Part shown: one piece after another, positions 776 to 19,603 of the stretch
Position numbering within the stretch: the stretch's first letter is position 1
Layout of the letters: every line of letters begins with the position of its first letter
Origin: Candidatus Iainarchaeum sp.
GTDB lineage: Archaea > Micrarchaeota > Micrarchaeia > Anstonellales > Bilamarchaeaceae
Reading direction: 5' to 3'
DNA: 52,800 nt
NCBI GenBank assembly: GCA_028686985.1
Contig: JAQUBA010000006.1
Span: forward strand, 1 to 52,800
Position numbers and translations under genes: made by a program
Notes under the pieces: model-generated
What the model saw: the letters and a program-made list of their open reading frames with translations, nothing else
Databases searched by the model: none
What the model was told of the DNA's origin: nothing

Positions 776-1006
776 CTAGTGTGTCCTTGCGACAACCACT
801 ACGTCTTCCACGGACTTTACGTTCTTGTAGAGCACGCTCTTCTCCTTCAGGATTTCCTTTCCCTTGTGGGAACTGAACTGCTCAAGGAGCATCCTCGCGA
901 CCTCGCCGCCTTCCAGGTCTATCACAAAGTCCTGGGCCGTCCCGACGTATTTTCCGCCGTCGGTGAAAATCTCCATCCCGTACAGTTTCGAGAGCTTGAC
1001 TGTCAT
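776..1006 (-). CDS. PRC-barrel domain protein
   Basis: A 76-residue single-domain protein that matches the short archaeal PRC-barrel type: an N-terminal LSKLYGMEIFTDGGKYVG strand-turn-strand, then a DFVIDLEGGEV strand and the closing VKSVEDVVVVAR strand. PRC-barrels are small beta-barrels found in photosynthetic reaction centre H subunits and RimM; free archaeal copies have no settled role (binding of RNA or of protein partners has been proposed). It has its own TATA-like box at 1045-1054 and the Shine-Dalgarno AAGGTG before the ATG, and is followed by a small membrane protein gene. Confidence 0.82.
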   Translation of the reverse strand: MTVKLSKLYGMEIFTDGGKYVGTAQDFVIDLEGGEVARMLLEQFSSHKGKEILKEKSVLYKNVKSVEDVVVVARTH

Positions 1007-1072: not shown

Positions 1073-2176
1073 TCATATCTTAGTGCCGTTGAAATAGAAA
1101 AGGCGATGCGCCTCCCTGCTCCCGGGCTTTATGCCCAGCGTGTCATAGATTCCTGAAATCCCCACCTGGCCCATAGGGCACTTGAGCGGCTTCCTGTCCG
1201 CCGCGGCCCGGAGCCCGTGCGCCCTCGCCTTGTATTTCGCCTCCGTTGCGGGGAGGGGCTGGCCCGGCCCGCCCACGCACCCGTACGGGCAGTTCATCAC
1301 TTCCACGAAATGGTACTTCACGCCGTGCCTTATCTCCTCCAGCACCCTGTCCAGGTTGGATACCCCATAAATGGAAACCACATTCAATTTGTATTTCCCT
1401 ATCTGGACGCACAGGTGCTTCACCTGCCCGTCCCCGCGGAACTTTATCCTCTCCTGGGATTCGCCCAGCTTGCACGCCAGGCTCGTGAGCAGCGCCTCCA
1501 CTATGCCGCCCGTCGCCCCGAATATCACCCCGTCCTTGGAGCTGTCCGGAAGGAGCGGAGTGAATTTCCCTTCCTTCACCGTGTTTATGCCCATCCCCCT
1601 TTTCTTCGCCCACATTGCGAGCTCCTGCGTGGTGAGCACGTAATCCACATACCTTTCCCCGGAGGCCATCCTCTCCCGCACCTCGTATTTCTTCAGGACG
1701 CAGGGCATTATGCCCACCATGCATATCCTGGAAACGGGCACCCCCAGCTTTTTGGATATGATATTCTTCGCCGCGCTGCCCGTGACCATGTGCGGGGACG
1801 CAATCGGGGAAACGAGGTGGTACAGTTCCGGGTGCTTGTTCCTGCAATACAGCCGCCACCCTATGCAGCAGGAGTTGAAGACCGGAAAATAGTTCTCGTC
1901 CCCGCGCTCCAGCGCGGCGATTATTTCCCCGACTTCCTCAAATATGTTTATGTCCGCGCCGAGCGGCGTATCAGTGACATGGTCAAATCCCAGCGCCCGC
2001 AGCAGCCCCACCGTTTTGTAGGTCAAATCCTCGCCCGGAGCGCGCCCGAACTCCTCGCCGATTGAGACGCGCACCGCGGGCGCAATCTGCGCCACCATTA
2101 TTTTTCCATTCTTTTTCTCCTTCTCAATCGCCGCGAAAAGCTCGCCGGGCTTGTTGAGGTATATTTCGCCTTCCAT
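1073..2176 (-). CDS. hydA: Minimal [FeFe]-hydrogenase, H-cluster domain only
   Basis: A 367-residue protein that is almost only the catalytic H-domain of [FeFe]-hydrogenase (2H+ + 2e- to H2 and the reverse). All three H-cluster motifs are present. L1 is FNSCCIGW (C103 in the proton-relay position, C104 a cluster ligand; Ile replaces the usual Pro). L2 is MPCVLKKYE (C159, K162, E165). L3 is VMNCPYGCVGGPGQP (C296 and C300). FGATGGIVEA at about 219-228 and the C-terminal GIKPGSREAHRLFY (the small-subunit segment, fused) also match. The N-terminal ferredoxin-like domains of larger enzymes are absent; the protein begins about 25 residues before AQIAPAVRVSIGEEFG. Eukaryotic Narf/Nar1 relatives lack the intact L1-L3 set, which argues against that alternative. 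ATG 2176 is preferred (GAGGTG just upstream); GTG 2182 is possible. HydE, HydF and HydG maturases are not in this window. Confidence 0.9.
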   Translation of the reverse strand: MEGEIYLNKPGELFAAIEKEKKNGKIMVAQIAPAVRVSIGEEFGRAPGEDLTYKTVGLLRALGFDHVTDTPLGADINIFEEVGEIIAALERGDENYFPVFNSCCIGWRLYCRNKHPELYHLVSPIASPHMVTGSAAKNIISKKLGVPVSRICMVGIMPCVLKKYEVRERMASGERYVDYVLTTQELAMWAKKRGMGINTVKEGKFTPLLPDSSKDGVIFGATGGIVEALLTSLACKLGESQERIKFRGDGQVKHLCVQIGKYKLNVVSIYGVSNLDRVLEEIRHGVKYHFVEVMNCPYGCVGGPGQPLPATEAKYKARAHGLRAAADRKPLKCPMGQVGISGIYDTLGIKPGSREAHRLFYFNGTKI

Positions 2177-2974: not shown

Positions 2975-3113
2975 GGCGTTTGGCATGCGAAGGGATGCGG
3001 CACTTAAGGCCGTCCTTGCGGATGGCAGGATGTGCGCAGCACTCAAGGCCCGCTTCCAACGGGCGGCTTCTCCGCCGCCCCTTTCTTTTTCCGAACGCGA
3101 AACGCGAACATAA
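2930..3113 (+). pseudogene. Probable out-of-frame C-terminal part of the 2471 gene
   Basis: This frame carries AAAGAYAQGISEAFGMRRD and a following alanine/lysine-rich helix that read like coding sequence, in the frame reached from the 2471 gene by one base. It has no start codon or ribosome site of its own that I would trust. The last 17 codons run through the terminator hairpin and are probably not natural protein. Confidence 0.4.
3061..3090 (+). terminator. GC hairpin followed by T-rich tract
   Basis: GGGCGGC (3061-3067) pairs with GCCGCCC (3074-3080) across a 6-nt loop, followed by CTTTCTTTTT. This ends the 2471 transcript and separates it from the giant gene, which has its own TATA box. 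Confidence 0.6.
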
Positions 3114-3124
3114 TACTTTTAAAA
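3114..3124 (+). promoter_or_regulatory. TATA-like box for the giant membrane protein gene
   Basis: TACTTTTAAAA lies about 27 nt before the ATG at 3146, the spacing for a leaderless transcript. Confidence 0.5.
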
Positions 3125-3145
3125 CCGGCATTCAGTAATAATTCC

Positions 3146-6100
3146 ATGGCCGATGCTGGCAGGAAGTGTTTAGCTGTGCTAATACTCCTACTGGCACTCG
3201 TGCCCCCCTCCTTCTCCGAAGCCACAAGCCCCTGCGCCGCATGCGGCCAGACCGACATCTATTCAATCTTTGATTATACGTCCTCCCAGATAAATGCCAC
3301 CCTTTCAGCGACCATAATCGATTTCACCCAGGACCGCGACCGCGACGCGCTTGAACAGCAATACCTGGATTTCCTCCATGAGAGATACAACCCGGACATC
3401 CTCCCGGCTGCGGGCAGCAGCGTCCACCGCCTGCCGGTCCCCAACGCCACGATAAGCATCTTTTATGAGAAAAGCGAAGTGGGCGCCGACGGCAGGCTCT
3501 CCTCCGCATTGATGCCCGTGACGTGCGTTGGCGCGCCAGCCGGCCCACTCAAAACAACCGCCCCCCTGGGCGAGGCCTCGTGCAGGATAGACCCAGAGAT
3601 ATACACGGGCAAATGCGTCCAGTTTTACTTGGAATTCACCGGCGGCAAGCCGGCCGGAATGCCCGCGGAACTCAACCCCGTCCAGTCCTCGCTCCGCATC
3701 TGCGACCCTGAAAGGACCGCCTTCTCCGCGATGGGCTCGGCCCTCTCCACAATAGGGGCCGCCTCCCTAGCCAACCCCATCTGCATAATCGGCTTCGTCA
3801 TACTCGGCCTTTTCGTCGCGTCCATGTTCTTCAGCGGTAGAAGCCCCGCATCCCTGCTTGACATCACCACGCCCCTCCTGCCCAAGCCGAAATCCATGTC
3901 CTACAGCGGGCTTGCTTTCGGAGCCACGTACGTGCGCATGAGGCGCGGAATAGAGAACATCCGCAAGGCATCCGGCAAACTGCTCTCAGGCCAGTCCGGC
4001 CAGCTCAGGGCCGAGCTGATGAAGCGCGGCTTCTCGCCGCGCGAGCTTGACGACATACTGGCGCTCGCAAAGGACGCCCCGCACATGGGCTATCTCGCGC
4101 TCCGCGCGCTCCGCGAAGGCAAGACCGTCGCCCAGGCGAAGGAAATCGCAAGGCTCCGTCCCCAGCCCGGGAAGGACGCAGACCTCAAGAGGGCTGCCGA
4201 AGAACTCAGGAAAATGCGCGAACGGAAGGGTGAGGAGGACGCCGCCCTCACGGCCGTGAGCGCCAGGATAGAGGCGGACCTCGCGGACAAGACCCTTGCC
4301 CTCATAACCGGAAACGTGCCGCCCCGCATCGCAAAGACCGTGAAGGCGGTCCTGGACAGCAAGAAATCCCCCTTATACTATCTCATGCCAGAGGACGTCC
4401 GCGACCAGTTGCGCGTTGGAATCGGTTCCGCCTTCGCAAGCGGAAGGCACGTGTCCCAATTCACAAAGAAGGCTGCAAAAGGCGTGGTTTCCATGGTTTC
4501 GGCCACAAAGGCCGAGCGCGCAGGCGCCGGCGCCCTCATGCCCGCCATGCCGGCCCCGAAGAAGGGCGAGGCGCGGAAAGACCTTTACCTCATGGACATA
4601 CGCTCCCGCATCTCCGAGTTCTACAAGACGCAAGTGCAGGAGTCCAAGGCAAACGCCGCCATGTACCTCGTCAAGAGGATTTTGGAATCCCGCGGCGTCA
4701 AGCTGGAACTTTCGGAGAAGGAGCTCCTTGAAATCGGGAAGCTGGAGATAGTGGGCCACATGGGCCTCGCAGGCAACGCGCGCGCCCTGGACGCGGACAA
4801 GAAGATACGCGCGATACTCTCCAGCAAGGATATCCCCATGGAGCTGAAGGTGGAAATGCTCATGAAGCTCGCCACCACGGAGGGCGTTTCCTTTGACCGC
4901 GTTGGCGTCCAGGCATTCATGTCCAAGATACGCTCCATAGAGGCAACGCAGAAGAGCGACAGGGAGAAGCTCCAGGAGCTGCACGACTACCTCAAGGAAA
5001 GATTCAAGGTGGACAAGATATGCGATTTCCGCGACGAGGCGCGCGGCGGCTTCTACCCCTGGGTGGGCCGCGACAGCCTTCGCTATTCCGCGGGCAACAA
5101 GAAATACGACGACACATGGACATTCATGCTGCTCCACAGCTTCCTTGACGGCGCCGCATCCGCCAAGCCCACATCCTTCGTGGATTCCGCGAAGCTGATG
5201 TGGCTCCGCCTGGTCAATGAGATGTGGGGCCTCCTCCCCTCGGACCCGAAGCTCATGCCAGGGCTGGACGAGAAGCTCCGCCCCATGATGAGGCGCGCGG
5301 AGGAATACGCGAAAAGCCTCCTTACCGAAGAGGGAAGGAAAAAGCTGGGCGAGATGACCCACGTATATGAACTGTTCTACAACCCCGCAATCGCCAAGCT
5401 TCCGATGGGCATGTGGATGCAATCCGAAATTGCCCGCGAATACGGCCCGGACATGCGCCACTGGAACGCCGACGTGAGGGGCTTCTGGCGCACATTCATC
5501 CCTGGCACGCCTTACATGGGCGACAAGAGGCACGCCAAGACCACTGTGATGGAGCAGGCATACGGCGAGAAGACTTACTCTCACATACACCGCAAGGACT
5601 CCGTGGATGCGATTGCGGCAAACATGTTCTACAACCGCATACGGAGCATGGTCGGCACGAAGTACCCGGACTCGTATTACACATCCAACTCAGAGTTCCG
5701 CTTCCTCGCATCCACCTACGGGGCGTTCAAGGAGCGCTACGCCCAGCTGTTCGGCGACACCAAGGGCAAGCGCGCGGACCCGAGCTGGGTAACGGACGGC
5801 ATGGTGGAGAACCTCACAAGGCGCGGCATAACCATGGACGAGCTCCACAACAATGTGTGGGTCAGGACGAGGGAAGGCAGCTACATCCCGTTCACGGAGG
5901 GCCGCGAGGCATTCGGCCTGCGCCTCAGCGACGGCGACAGGGTGGTCGGCGGCAAGCTCGCGGTCAATCTGGGCGGGCGCTGGACCCCGTTTGACCCACA
6001 GAAAATCGGGGAACGCATGGACAAGGAGAAGATCAAGCTCCCAGCGGAACTTGAGAGGGAGCAGGCGCTGGTCAGGCAGAGGATATTTGACTCCCCCTCC

Positions 6101-8026
6101 GCGCAGGAGGGCCTTTACAAGCACAAGGTCATAGACGAAGACACGCGCGCAGCGATGGTCGCCCACGCCCGCAACCTCGCCCGATGGGCAGGCAACGACA
6201 AGCGCGACATCGCAGCATATCTCGTGCAGCGCATGTGCAAGGAGGCAAGCGATTCCGCCGCCATGGAGCGCACCGGCCTACTGTCCATCCGGCCGCAGCG
6301 CGACCTTGGATTCGTCGGGTTCCGCAAGACCCTCCAGAAGATTTGGCAGCCGTTCAGCAAAGGCGTTGAGCAGCTCCTGATTTCCTCATTCATGCCGCAG
6401 GCGAACGAGATGCTGAACACGACCATGCAGACCGAGCACCTGCGCGCCCGCACCACTGCGCTTTCCGGCAGGCTTGCCGCAGCCATGACGAATCCGGACA
6501 TTGACCCCTCCATAAACACTAAACTGTTCAGCAAGGACGTTTCTGAGCTGATACACGCCATGACGCGCTACCGCGCCACCTGGGATTACAGCGTGACCAG
6601 GGACCCGAGGGGCCTCAGCTCCAGCATCAGCTCGCAACTCAACTTCGCGGCAATGCACCACCACGGCCCGGCCACGCATCCCGAGGCCGTAACCGCTACG
6701 CTCCCGGAATTCCAGGGCAGGAAGTTCCGCCAGTTCATGGAGAAGATACGCCTCTCGCCGCTTTCCATAAACTGGATGATAGGCGCCCCGTTCATCCTCC
6801 AGGTCAGGGGCGCGCTCACTTCCTGGTATGGCTACCCGAGCAAGCACGACAAGACGTACCACCCCCTGCACCCGTACGCGATGTCCCCCGGCCGCACCCT
6901 TGAGGGCATCCGTTCCCTCCTTGACCCGTTCTATTCCGCGATAGACCTCCAGTCCAGCACGTCCCAGAAGCTCGCATCGCTTGCGGCTTCCCCGATGCAC
7001 CCCGTGGCCAGCCCCATAAGCAAATACCTGCTGGACCCGCTGGCCGGGAAACTCGACCGCACGTCCGGGCGCGATGGCGACCTCACCGCCAAGCTTTCCA
7101 GGGCAGTCAGCTTCGTGTCCAGCGCCTTGCAGCCCGAGAAGGGCCTCAGCTCCGCGAGGGACGCATACTACCTGCCGCACTATGCGAAGGAGGCCAGCAT
7201 CCACGACAAGCTCAACGGGGCGATGTCCGCCCGCGAGTACGGCGGCAAAGCCGTGCTGGATGGCCAGACCAGGGCGCACGAGGACCAGGCCTGGATATAC
7301 AAGAACATAAACGTGGTCTGGAGCGAGGACACGAACCCCGGCGTCTCCTACCTGGACTTCAACTACAACGTGCTCGCGGACCCGCGCCTCGCAACCCACC
7401 TGGTCTCCGGCACAAAATTCACCTCATATTTCGCGCAGGACGAATACCTGCAGAAGCAGGCGAACCTCGGGATAGTGCAGAGGCACGTCTCCGCGTACGA
7501 GCTCACGGAGGAGAGGGAGCAGGAGATACGCAGCTACCAGAGCCCCAGGCAGAACCGCATGTGGGGCTTCATGAACCCCCTCCTCTTCTTCCTGAACAAC
7601 CCGATATGGCCGCTCTCCTACGCCACATACGAATCCGTGGCACACCAGCTTCCGCAGCGCTTCAGGCAGATGCGGGAGGAGGCGGAGAGGAGGAAGGAGC
7701 TGCGCTTCGCGGACCTCTACAATCCCCCCAAGATATACATGGGCGGCATGCCGGTGGGCACCGCCTCGGAGGAAATAAAATATAGCACCCTCAGCCACGA
7801 GCAGGTCCGCACCGCCGAGACCACCACGGAGAAGTTCATCCGCAAGGCGGGCAGCATCTGGTCCGCGGTCTTCCACAACGTCCGCTTCGTCTATTGCGGC
7901 ACCTGCCACTCCCCGATGCAGGCCAATGGAATCTGCCCGATATGCAGCGGCAAAGCATTATATTTCAACAACCTCCAGAAGAGGCAGTGGGCCAACTACA
8001 AGCCGCCAAAGGAGAGGAAGAGATGA
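3146..8026 (+). CDS. Giant membrane protein of unknown function with C-terminal zinc ribbon
   Basis: A 1626-residue protein, much the longest in the window; I recognise no known family. Residues 1-26 are a signal peptide (MADAGRKCLAVLILLLALV, cleavage near SFSEA). Residues ~27-205 look extracellular (several Cys, N-x-S/T sites), and ~209-231 form a membrane helix (ICIIGFVILGLFVASMFF). About 1350 mostly alpha-helical, Lys/Arg-rich residues follow, predicted on the opposite face, with many aromatic His/Trp/Tyr patches (for example AMHHHGPATHP). The end is a zinc ribbon at ~1583-1602 (CGTC ... CPIC) and a basic tail. The ATG at 3146 was chosen for the signal peptide and TATA spacing. It overlaps the next gene as ATGATGA. 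A role as a surface or secretion machine with the downstream lysozyme-like protein is inference from the coupling alone. Confidence 0.85.
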   Translation: MADAGRKCLAVLILLLALVPPSFSEATSPCAACGQTDIYSIFDYTSSQINATLSATIIDFTQDRDRDALEQQYLDFLHERYNPDILPAAGSSVHRLPVPNATISIFYEKSEVGADGRLSSALMPVTCVGAPAGPLKTTAPLGEASCRIDPEIYTGKCVQFYLEFTGGKPAGMPAELNPVQSSLRICDPERTAFSAMGSALSTIGAASLANPICIIGFVILGLFVASMFFSGRSPASLLDITTPLLPKPKSMSYSGLAFGATYVRMRRGIENIRKASGKLLSGQSGQLRAELMKRGFSPRELDDILALAKDAPHMGYLALRALREGKTVAQAKEIARLRPQPGKDADLKRAAEELRKMRERKGEEDAALTAVSARIEADLADKTLALITGNVPPRIAKTVKAVLDSKKSPLYYLMPEDVRDQLRVGIGSAFASGRHVSQFTKKAAKGVVSMVSATKAERAGAGALMPAMPAPKKGEARKDLYLMDIRSRISEFYKTQVQESKANAAMYLVKRILESRGVKLELSEKELLEIGKLEIVGHMGLAGNARALDADKKIRAILSSKDIPMELKVEMLMKLATTEGVSFDRVGVQAFMSKIRSIEATQKSDREKLQELHDYLKERFKVDKICDFRDEARGGFYPWVGRDSLRYSAGNKKYDDTWTFMLLHSFLDGAASAKPTSFVDSAKLMWLRLVNEMWGLLPSDPKLMPGLDEKLRPMMRRAEEYAKSLLTEEGRKKLGEMTHVYELFYNPAIAKLPMGMWMQSEIAREYGPDMRHWNADVRGFWRTFIPGTPYMGDKRHAKTTVMEQAYGEKTYSHIHRKDSVDAIAANMFYNRIRSMVGTKYPDSYYTSNSEFRFLASTYGAFKERYAQLFGDTKGKRADPSWVTDGMVENLTRRGITMDELHNNVWVRTREGSYIPFTEGREAFGLRLSDGDRVVGGKLAVNLGGRWTPFDPQKIGERMDKEKIKLPAELEREQALVRQRIFDSPSAQEGLYKHKVIDEDTRAAMVAHARNLARWAGNDKRDIAAYLVQRMCKEASDSAAMERTGLLSIRPQRDLGFVGFRKTLQKIWQPFSKGVEQLLISSFMPQANEMLNTTMQTEHLRARTTALSGRLAAAMTNPDIDPSINTKLFSKDVSELIHAMTRYRATWDYSVTRDPRGLSSSISSQLNFAAMHHHGPATHPEAVTATLPEFQGRKFRQFMEKIRLSPLSINWMIGAPFILQVRGALTSWYGYPSKHDKTYHPLHPYAMSPGRTLEGIRSLLDPFYSAIDLQSSTSQKLASLAASPMHPVASPISKYLLDPLAGKLDRTSGRDGDLTAKLSRAVSFVSSALQPEKGLSSARDAYYLPHYAKEASIHDKLNGAMSAREYGGKAVLDGQTRAHEDQAWIYKNINVVWSEDTNPGVSYLDFNYNVLADPRLATHLVSGTKFTSYFAQDEYLQKQANLGIVQRHVSAYELTEEREQEIRSYQSPRQNRMWGFMNPLLFFLNNPIWPLSYATYESVAHQLPQRFRQMREEAERRKELRFADLYNPPKIYMGGMPVGTASEEIKYSTLSHEQVRTAETTTEKFIRKAGSIWSAVFHNVRFVYCGTCHSPMQANGICPICSGKALYFNNLQKRQWANYKPPKERKR

Positions 8027-10326
8027 TGAAACGACTCGCGCTCCTGCTCGCCGCCCTGATGCGCTTCGGCTGCATAGACCAAAGCTATTACCGCAGCGCG
8101 GTGCAGGGGAGCGGCGTTGTCATAGACGGCTCCGGCGCATCGGATTTGTGCGCACAGGGCAACTGCAACTGCATGGTCTGCGACACCTACCTGTTTTATG
8201 GCGCCAGGCCAACCGCCCAATTCTATCCCTTCTCATACAAGCACAGCGAATGCCAGTTCGTGCCCTGCACCTTTGACCAGTTCAGCTCCTACGTGCAGGC
8301 CAACCCCCAGGCGCGCACCGGCGCCGGCACGAGCGCCGCCTCCGGAGAGAACATGCTCAACTTCTTCATGTTCGGGCAGGGCGGCTTCGGCGAGTTCAAC
8401 CGCGCCAACCCGTTCTGCAACAATTCCCTGCGCATGCCCGTCAAATGGCTTGACAGCAGGTACGGCAACGGCGAATACCCGATGCCGAACGTGGGCAGGG
8501 CCGAATGCTTCCTGGACAAGGGCACCATGCCGGTTTATATCCTCTACAGCAACGGCGAGCACATAGACGCCAGCCGCTCAAGGGAGATTGCGGACGAGCT
8601 GGACGGAACCGGGCTGCACACGGGCCCCATAATCATAACCTCGGAGATGAACTTCAACTCCTCCAACCCGGACACAGTCTCCAATGTCACGGAGCAGGTG
8701 CGCGCCCTCAAATCCGCGTGCCCCGAATGCCTCATCGCGCTCGCCCCCCGCATCTGGGACGAGTCCGAGGAGCTTGACGGCATAATGCAGGAAGCCGGGG
8801 ATTCCATAGACCTGTTCGCATTCGGCATAGACTCCAACAACTACACCTCATGCAGCCCGCTCCTGATGCTCTCGGACGCAACCCAGTACTCCCAGTACCT
8901 ATTATACAGATACAAGAAGCCATCCATCCTCGCATACGTCCTCTTTGACAACACCACGAGCAGCGATGGGAGCTGCACGTGGGACGACTCACTCATCTCC
9001 GAGGGCTACTCCGCGTTCTTCACCTACCCGCAGGGCTTCGCGTCCTCCGGCATACTCGGAGGCGCATTATACTCATTATACGGGGTGGCCGACCCCCTCG
9101 GTTGCACGGACTGCGGCCTCTACAATTCCACCGGCTCGCCCATCCCGCAGCGCCAGGCCTCCTGGTTCTCCGGCTGCCAGGGAGCATACGCGACCTCCAG
9201 CGTCGTCCCATTAGTTTTCAGCGACGCCCCGGGCACCACCTGCTCCTATTCCCAGCCAGGCTATTCTTTTGTGGGCTCGGACTTCAGGACCTCCCCCCCC
9301 ACCTACACCGAGCCCGCGGGCTCTTGGGATACGTTCTACAGCTGCGACTCCTGCCTCGTCACTGACAGGCCCTCTTCGGTTGGCAAGAACATACGCCCAC
9401 AGCTCCCTGGAGATTACGTATGTGAAGACTACCCCGCCCTTGACGTGTACGCGGACATCCGCGACATCGACCCCGCCTATGTGCGCGCAACGGTATGGCA
9501 CGAGAGCAACTTTCAGCGCTGCTCGGTGGGCAACTCCACCGCCCCCTGCGGCAGGGACGAGCCCATCTTCTCGGTTACCGACCCGGGCAGCGGCTGCGAA
9601 GGGGATCCGGACTGGGAAGGCTTGAACACCTACACCGCGCCCAGCGGCCACATCTGCGACATGGGCCTCATCCCCACCTTCGCCACCCCCGAAGACATGT
9701 GGCTGGACATAAACTGGAATTCCGATATGGAAGGCCCTGGGGGGGACCTTGAAATAGCCCGCAACTGTGCCGGGGATGAGAAGTTCAACCCTTTCAACCC
9801 GGAGCACATCTCCTGCGAGGGCACTTATGAACTGGCCGAGCACATCCGTAAAGCCACATCCTTTGTTGAGGATAATGAAGGCAAGCTCGGCCTGACCAGG
9901 ATAAAGGCGACATATGGGGAAGATGAATACGAGAACTCAAAAGGCCTTGTAATCGTGATGATGGCACGCATGCAATTCATAGGCGCGGCATACGGCCAGA
10001 GGGACACATTGGCTTCCAAATTCAGCGATTTCTCTAAAAAAGATGCAGGATACTGCAGGGACCATCCAGGCGACAGCCCGTGCTGCGAAGGCGGCCGCGT
10101 TACTAATGAACTATGCTGCGGCAACAACGATTTCGTGGAATTCGTAGTGAATGAGGAATGCATAGACCTCGCCGGCATCAGCTATGGCGGCCAGAAAACC
10201 AGCGTGGCAAATATGCGCTTCGTGCTCAGCAAATATCTCGGAGTCCGCGAGAAGTGCGGAATCTGCGACCAGGGGGCCTGGGACGAGAACGTAAATGCAT
10301 GGGCAAGAACCCAGGGCGTAGAATAA
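8023..10326 (+). CDS. Secreted Cys-rich protein with TIM-barrel-like and lysozyme/SLT-like regions
   Basis: A 767-residue exported protein translated from an ATG that overlaps the stop codon of the giant gene. The N-terminus (MMKRLALLLAALMRFGC) is a signal sequence ending in a lipobox-like FGC, so it may be lipid-anchored. There are many Cys pairs, suggesting disulfides. Residues ~170-360 read like a glycosidase-type TIM barrel (VYILYSNGEHID, IIITSEMNF, CLIALAPRIWDE, ILGGALYSLYG). Residues ~475-680 read like a transglycosylase/lysozyme fold: IDPAYVRATVWHESNF with candidate catalytic E494, then CDMGLIPTFATP, then FNPFNPEHISCEGTYELAEHI. Known relatives of the second fold cleave murein, or serve as VirB1-type wall openers in secretion systems. 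Archaea lack murein, so the target would be another cell or a different polymer. Domain calls are by eye. Confidence 0.75.
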   Translation: MMKRLALLLAALMRFGCIDQSYYRSAVQGSGVVIDGSGASDLCAQGNCNCMVCDTYLFYGARPTAQFYPFSYKHSECQFVPCTFDQFSSYVQANPQARTGAGTSAASGENMLNFFMFGQGGFGEFNRANPFCNNSLRMPVKWLDSRYGNGEYPMPNVGRAECFLDKGTMPVYILYSNGEHIDASRSREIADELDGTGLHTGPIIITSEMNFNSSNPDTVSNVTEQVRALKSACPECLIALAPRIWDESEELDGIMQEAGDSIDLFAFGIDSNNYTSCSPLLMLSDATQYSQYLLYRYKKPSILAYVLFDNTTSSDGSCTWDDSLISEGYSAFFTYPQGFASSGILGGALYSLYGVADPLGCTDCGLYNSTGSPIPQRQASWFSGCQGAYATSSVVPLVFSDAPGTTCSYSQPGYSFVGSDFRTSPPTYTEPAGSWDTFYSCDSCLVTDRPSSVGKNIRPQLPGDYVCEDYPALDVYADIRDIDPAYVRATVWHESNFQRCSVGNSTAPCGRDEPIFSVTDPGSGCEGDPDWEGLNTYTAPSGHICDMGLIPTFATPEDMWLDINWNSDMEGPGGDLEIARNCAGDEKFNPFNPEHISCEGTYELAEHIRKATSFVEDNEGKLGLTRIKATYGEDEYENSKGLVIVMMARMQFIGAAYGQRDTLASKFSDFSKKDAGYCRDHPGDSPCCEGGRVTNELCCGNNDFVEFVVNEECIDLAGISYGGQKTSVANMRFVLSKYLGVREKCGICDQGAWDENVNAWARTQGVE

Positions 10327-19290: not shown

Positions 19291-19308
19291 AGCCCTGGAC
19301 GAGAGTTG
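19291..19308. repeat. 18-bp copy of the tRNA-Thr 3' end (att-like repeat, outer)
   Basis: AGCCCTGGACGAGAGTTG is identical to bases 19648-19665 inside tRNA-Thr, from the T-loop through the discriminator. It lies in the same orientation 357 bp away on the 3' side of the tRNA, as expected for the far attachment site of an element that integrated into the tRNA gene. Confidence 0.7.
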
Positions 19309-19312
19309 CTCC

Positions 19313-19346
19313 AAGAGGAAGGGGGAAGGCGTTCCCCCCTCTCTTT
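19313..19346. terminator. Strong GC stem-loop beside the repeat
   Basis: GGGGGAA (19321-19327) pairs exactly with TTCCCCC (19332-19338) around a GGCG loop, and the flanks (AAGAG / CTCTT) can extend it. On the minus strand it follows the small Cys-rich gene and could end that transcript. Confidence 0.4.
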
Positions 19347-19399
19347 AGGGTAATCATACCCCCCTCCCACTTCACTTTAACACTCTTTGCATGCACTCC

Positions 19400-19603
19400 T
19401 TACGCTTTTGATTTTTGATTAGTAGATTTTACAGGATATGTGCAAACCACTGTGTCAGGTGACTTTATTCCATTGAAATATTTGCAAATAGAGATATTCT
19501 TCACAGCACATTTGTGCCCGTCAGTATTTTCTGCAACATTCCACGGGCATTTGTCCTGTTTCCAAGAAATGTTCCCAGGATTAGTTGCTAAATCTATATC
19601 CAT
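19400..19603 (-). CDS. Small Cys-rich protein next to tRNA-Thr
   Basis: A 67-residue protein with an ordered Cys pattern: CPWN, HKCAVKN, ISICKYFNGI, VVCTYP. This suggests a metal site or disulfides. GGAG lies 6 nt before ATG 19603; a longer frame from 19645 exists but lacks such a site. The gene is more AT-rich than its neighbours. It fills the interval between tRNA-Thr and the 18-bp copy of that tRNA's 3' end, and reads in the tRNA's direction. Similar small Cys proteins occur in archaea as far as I recall, with no known function. Confidence 0.6.
   Translation of the reverse strand: MDIDLATNPGNISWKQDKCPWNVAENTDGHKCAVKNISICKYFNGIKSPDTVVCTYPVKSTNQKSKA

Follow-up and report, generated by a model that had tools for sequence, protein, structure and literature searches.

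How can an archaeon with an intact [FeFe]-hydrogenase gene complete its enzyme when it lacks the HydE, HydF and HydG set that is considered essential for H-cluster assembly (PMC6212873)? The question is raised by a gene in the window, the whole stretch of 52,800 nucleotides analysed here, which belongs to a Candidatus Micrarchaeota genome assembly (G000). Some organisms have an [FeFe]-hydrogenase and no HydEFG, and how they cope is unexplained; the data presented here put forward a concrete candidate gene, named cl3. Giardia intestinalis poses the same maturation problem, differing in that it is a eukaryote, and we know of no HydEFG replacement there. Table 2 of PMC6397501 gives its HydA as present and reports HydE, HydF and HydG as not found.

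The hydrogenase of the window

The hydrogenase gene, hydA, lies on the minus strand at positions 1073 to 2176 as an unbroken reading frame of 367 amino acids, with its ATG at 2176 and its stop codon at 1075-1073, whereas the plus strand across the same interval is interrupted by stops. The protein matches the Pfam family Fe_hyd_lg_C over most of its length (E = 1.9e-65) and 43 distinct [FeFe]-hydrogenase sequences from the PDB (best E = 4.9e-63). The NCBIfam models for group A were the best of that collection, yet they scored under their own cut-offs, which are set for longer enzymes. An AlphaFold model (pLDDT 91.3, pTM 0.91) superposes at full length on CpI with a TM-score of 0.88, so the comparison with an H-cluster template that had been proposed as a check returns the H-domain fold. 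The domain begins at residue 16-25 of the 367, and no accessory Fe-S domain is present at the N-terminus or elsewhere. At the other end, residues 312-361 (1094-1243, minus strand) form a stretch that is helical in the model and like a small subunit; the phmmer alignment with a construct in which the large and small subunits of the D. desulfuricans enzyme are fused reaches residue 361, which indicates that the small-subunit tail is present in hydA. No convincing operon partner of the hydrogenase was found within the window. With orthologues of 78-91% identity in each of the four other species sampled in the genus, hydA cannot be put down to a fault of assembly or binning, and the gene is present in 22 of 59 near relatives. 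The named genomes nearest to G000 are MAGs of Candidatus Micrarchaeota.

All three H-cluster motifs can be read from the minus-strand translation. The L1 motif is FNSCCIGW (residues 100-107, 1856-1879), in which both cysteines are kept and Ile replaces Pro; the L2 motif is MPCVLKKYE (residues 157-165, 1682-1708), which agrees with MPCxxKxxE in translation and alignment; and the L3 motif is EVMNCPYGCVGGPGQP (residues 292-307, 1256-1303), which holds the cluster cysteines C296 and C300, agrees with ExMxCxxGCxxGG and reads GGPGQ. This confirms that the window gene is an intact H-domain-only [FeFe]-hydrogenase. A sequence-only reading of the window had described it in those terms, as an archaeal enzyme of 367 residues with three motifs, a fused tail, no ferredoxin-like domains and no partner subunit, and had named loss of a cluster cysteine as a finding that would overturn the description; every cluster cysteine is present and the description holds throughout, the minus strand being added to it here. 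The same reading singled out the Ile after the SCC pair and the L3 variant as unusual. Both are there, but they are less remarkable than was thought, since the genus has Ile or Val after SCC and the altered L3 without exception, and most of the clade of small hydrogenases shares them. Judged from these alignments, the odd motifs are clade-wide lineage marks and not unique to the window gene.

That clade was recovered in a tree with bacterial homologues, a quick tree with SH-aLRT support only, in which the window protein falls inside a Micrarchaeota-only group of 20 small hydrogenases (support 97). Several other hydrogenase lineages of Micrarchaeota group among bacterial ones in the same tree. 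A Nar1/NARF-like identity, against which the earlier reading had wanted a phylogeny, was rejected on the position in this group A Micrarchaeota clade (in a tree that holds no Nar1 sequence) and on the retention of the L1 cysteine pair together with the ligands in L2 and L3. A different L1 variant was seen in the bacterial [FeFe]-hydrogenases L059, L067, L068, L089, L090, L091 and L099, from Firestonebacteria, Planctomycetota and Kiritimatiellota, which read TSCSPGW or TSCSPAW with Ser for the second L1 cysteine.

An H-domain-only archaeal hydrogenase is in itself of an already known kind, the M1 type, of which CrHydA1 is the archetype. M1-type enzymes of archaea are described in the part of PMC12645427 that cites Greening 2024, in agreement with the statement of the earlier reading that very small archaeal enzymes are reported from DPANN lineages. 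The window enzyme resembles these minimal enzymes in having only the H-domain, the three motifs and a DPANN host; it differs in Ile/Val for Pro in L1, in GGPGQP in L3, and in being found in genomes without HydEFG and with cl3. The group A enzymes of Woesearchaeota and other DPANN archaea (PMC8421398), among which Micrarchaeota relatives were reported, share the catalytic domain, but unlike the window enzyme they are mostly trimeric A3 hydrogenases with NuoE/NuoF-like subunits, and the main text of that paper does not mention HydE or maturation. What appears to be new here is the maturation, that is, hydrogenase-bearing genomes without HydEFG that are coupled to cl3.

Missing maturases and the cl3 gene

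No match to HydG or HydE was found anywhere in the G000 assembly, which is 85% complete, and the search for HydF returned weak matches of a generic GTPase type only. The observation that no maturase genes lie near hydA therefore extends to the whole assembly. It had been made for the window alone, and both its near phylum-wide extent and its coupling to a membrane protein had been missed. In a sample of 301 Micrarchaeota genomes, 40 carry hydA (defined by PF02906), and HydG is absent from 37 of these 40, the exceptions being G004, G038 and G279. HydE and HydF, searched in 22 genomes, were found only in G004 and G038; in G279, two reading frames adjoining HydG match the HydE (55% identity) and HydF (51%) of G038. 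Absence of the maturases is thus a near phylum-wide rule among Micrarchaeota that carry hydA.

Absence is one possible reason to think that the hydA product never receives the [2Fe] half of its cofactor and instead has a redox or regulatory role based on the [4Fe-4S] cluster alone, and degraded proton-path residues in some relatives point the same way. For example, the hydA of one cl3-bearing relative (L047, genome G016) has LEAANH instead of FEEVGE and has lost the acidic residues aligned with E81 and E84, which are probable proton path residues. However, the L1 cysteine pair, the Met, Cys and Lys of L2 and the Met and two Cys of L3 are retained across nearly the whole clade, as expected of an H-cluster site under selection, and the minimal DPANN enzymes of Greening 2024 are said to bind the H-cluster and make H2. 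We regard a [4Fe-4S]-only protein as very doubtful.

A gene that accompanies hydA was found by comparing neighbourhoods, in which an uncharacterised membrane protein of about 187 amino acids, cl3, stands beside hydA in several genera. The G000 copy, located by profile search and contig alignment, lies outside the window on the minus strand of another contig (C16:36935-37501). By profile search of the 301 genomes, and leaving one weak fragment (G050) out of the count, cl3 is present in 36 of the 40 genomes with hydA and in 1 of the 261 without (Fisher p = 6e-41). Among the genomes with hydA, 36 have cl3 without HydG, three have HydG without cl3 (G004, G038 and G279), none has both and one has neither (Fisher p = 4e-4), an exclusion that rests on the three HydG-bearing genomes. 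It should be noted that both p-values overstate independence, the genomes being related. In G093, the one genome with neither gene, hydA sits at the edge of a 7.4-kb contig, which stops ahead of the expected site, cl3 lying about 2.3 kb further on in its congeners. The single match outside the hydA-bearing set (G042:C208:9773-10237) is a strong one from an assembly that is 85% complete and in 210 contigs, and it represents either an assembly gap or cl3 without the enzyme. The three genomes with HydG belong to three families and to three parts of the hydA tree, which implies that as many as three exchanges took place independently. In the cl3 tree, hydA type needs no more than the minimum number of changes, and the f13 genomes and most of the f5 ones share one type. 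In 40 hydA-bearing bacterial genomes cl3 was not found by a search run without a positive control of its own; this fits replacement and is equally expected of a gene specific to Micrarchaeota.

One such exchange can be seen between sister species within the genus. In G004, hydG-hydE-hydF lie on contig C35 (L034:2263-5975), which is collinear in contig alignment with G000:C16:36637-46034. The aligned blocks at positions 757-1035 and 5994-6345 of C35 are separated by 4958 bases in G004 and by 620 in G000. The 4.96 kb in G004 hold an aminopeptidase-like gene and hydG-hydE-hydF, and the 0.62 kb in G000 hold one clear gene, cl3. The three other species (G001, G002 and G003) carry cl3 on contigs homologous to this region. 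Contamination as the source of the G004 contig was rejected on its collinearity and on its composition, which matches the genus (GC 0.556, tetranucleotide correlation with the window 0.82-0.87); a contig from a closely related strain would still fit. The order of the genes in G004 is G-E-F as against E-F-G in G038 and G279, and their products are 31-52% identical to those of both, which suggests that the G004 cassette was gained separately. In Micrarchaeota with hydA, the HydEFG toolkit thus appears to be replaced at the genome level by cl3.

These data also bear on whether the maturases are present and were simply missed, through gaps in the assemblies or divergence of HydEFG. The genomes are draft MAGs and G000 is incomplete. 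However, the syntenic site in G000 is closed and holds cl3, and the 37 genomes without HydG include near-complete assemblies, while the same search detects HydG in the three genomes named above and, above cut-off, in one control genome. Genomes without maturases include G044 (97% complete, 7 contigs), in which 83 kb of a single contig (C2) separate cl3 from hydA and HydE, HydF and HydG are all absent, and G061, in which hydA lies on a 920-kb contig. A MAG gap or binning error was rejected on the closed site and the phylum-wide pattern, and missed maturases in general are highly improbable.

A further explanation is that cl3 encodes a membrane protein that partners or anchors the hydrogenase, for electron transfer or localisation, and that its link to the absent maturases is coincidental. 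Close linkage would favour this, cl3 being within 6 kb of hydA in 28 of the 36 genomes, mostly no more than 3 kb away, and in three arrangements. It does not explain why cl3 is missing from exactly the three genomes that have HydG, or why it was exchanged in situ with hydGEF, when a partner should be required under any route of maturation. Additionally, cl3 has no conserved Cys or His with which to hold a redox cofactor. A partner or anchor is, on balance, quite unlikely.

Fold and possible cargo of cl3

Searches of cl3 against Pfam, NCBIfam and PDB sequences gave no significant family, the best match being PF12822 (ECF_trnsprt) at E = 0.49 in one member. An AlphaFold model from 30 sequences (pLDDT 92, pTM 0.87) has a short N-terminal helix followed by six long transmembrane helices, and its leading Foldseek matches in the PDB, the only credible ones, are S-components of ECF transporters. 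TmRibU matched with a probability of 0.99 (TM-scores 0.61/0.67), 5edl with 0.95, PanT and ThiT with 0.69 each and BtuM with 0.38, at E-values of 0.3-1.9. The three best matches overall have probabilities of 0.93-0.99 and TM-scores of 0.46-0.67, but E-values of 0.3-0.5, and E-values against S-components as a whole are weak (0.3-2.5). An S-component-like fold is therefore suggested, short of proof. The likeness to RibU, ThiT, PanT and BtuM lies in a length of about 190 amino acids, six transmembrane helices and Foldseek probabilities of up to 0.99; unlike them, cl3 has no significant sequence similarity to the family, is associated in genomes with an [FeFe]-hydrogenase, and comes from a genome whose examined part, roughly 50%, showed no recognisable EcfT or EcfA. 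The EcfT/EcfA module is dispensable for solitary S-components. Q46, W102, N105, K134 and Q163 are among the invariant residues of the helices, and position 113 is always Lys or Arg; an invariant Lys134 and an always basic position 113 in predicted transmembrane helices would suit an anionic cargo.

Work on maturation in vitro indicates what such a cargo might be. The [4Fe-4S] half of the H-cluster comes from housekeeping Fe-S assembly, and in apo-enzyme to which [2Fe]adt is added the H-cluster is complete within seconds, with no need of maturases (PMC7399679). In living cells of E. coli and Synechocystis, apo-HydA is likewise activated when [2Fe]adt is supplied (PMC6984386). Since apo-HydA is activated by [2Fe]adt alone, a cell that takes up [2Fe] would not need HydEFG, and an S-component-like protein that occurs with hydA only where HydG is absent, and that takes the place of hydGEF on the chromosome, is the most economical candidate for such uptake. 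We infer that cl3 is the importer and that [2Fe] or a precursor is its cargo. That cl3 imports the diiron subsite or a precursor of it, and so makes HydEFG dispensable, has in our judgement an even chance of being right. The fuller proposal, in which Micrarchaeota salvage the finished organometallic [2Fe] from other cells through an importer of the S-component type and the H-cluster becomes a shared, scavenged cofactor like a vitamin, is more tentative and stands somewhat below even.

Under the import explanation, hydA would be a minimal [FeFe]-hydrogenase, predicted to be catalytically intact, whose [4Fe-4S] half would come from the ordinary Fe-S machinery of the cell. With HydE, HydF and HydG all missing, the organometallic [2Fe] half would have to come from outside, probably released by neighbouring cells that have HydEFG. 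The six-helix cl3 protein would bring in the diiron subsite or a late precursor. Once inside, the imported unit would enter apo-HydA unaided, in the way known for synthetic [2Fe]adt from in vitro work and from living E. coli, and the completed enzyme would shed electrons as H2, if catalysis runs in that direction. Against import, we are aware of no pool of [2Fe] or of precursors to it that occurs naturally outside cells.

It is also conceivable that cl3 replaces HydEFG by importing something earlier or different, such as a synthon of the Fe(CO)(CN) type, the ligand azadithiolate, or else a vitamin that feeds some home-made maturation pathway. The co-occurrence, the exchange and the fold speak equally for this, as none of them identifies the cargo, and the S-components characterised so far carry vitamins and related small molecules. 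However, one importer in place of three maturases at one locus fits a finished product or late precursor more simply, and the loci read around hydA and cl3, which are partly annotated, show no evident alternative maturation enzyme. Such another cargo seems unlikely to us.

The swap of cl3 for hydGEF between sister species amounts to a natural exchange, and an assay that already exists makes the question testable in E. coli. If import of [2Fe] by cl3 is true, it would provide a HydEFG-independent route to active [FeFe]-hydrogenase and, to our knowledge, the first known importer of an organometallic CO/CN iron cofactor. It would also extend cofactor cross-feeding to hydrogenases and could simplify the maturation of engineered ones. 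In the literature searched, with most subscription papers lying outside it, neither cl3 nor any importer for the H-cluster was found to be described.

Other features of the window

A ferredoxin, for which the sequence-only reading had suggested a search, was sought in about 50% of G000, made up of three contigs and the window, and no protein with the motif CxxCxxCxxxCP was found in that part. Directly downstream of hydA is a gene for a 76-amino-acid PRC-barrel protein (776-1006, minus strand), which is also downstream of hydA in G004; this is an association only and lies outside the proposed mechanism. On the plus strand, 3032-8026 and 7894-10326 encode proteins of 1664 and 810 amino acids with no Pfam match, and both keep their place next to hydA across the five genomes of the genus. 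An Rfam scan of the window returned tRNAs only. Near tRNA-Thr, at 19300-19420, there is a small dispersed element, a G/C-rich hairpin followed by CTCTTTAGGGTAATCATA, with two exact core matches in 419 kb of G000 and related copies scattered in all five genomes of the genus.
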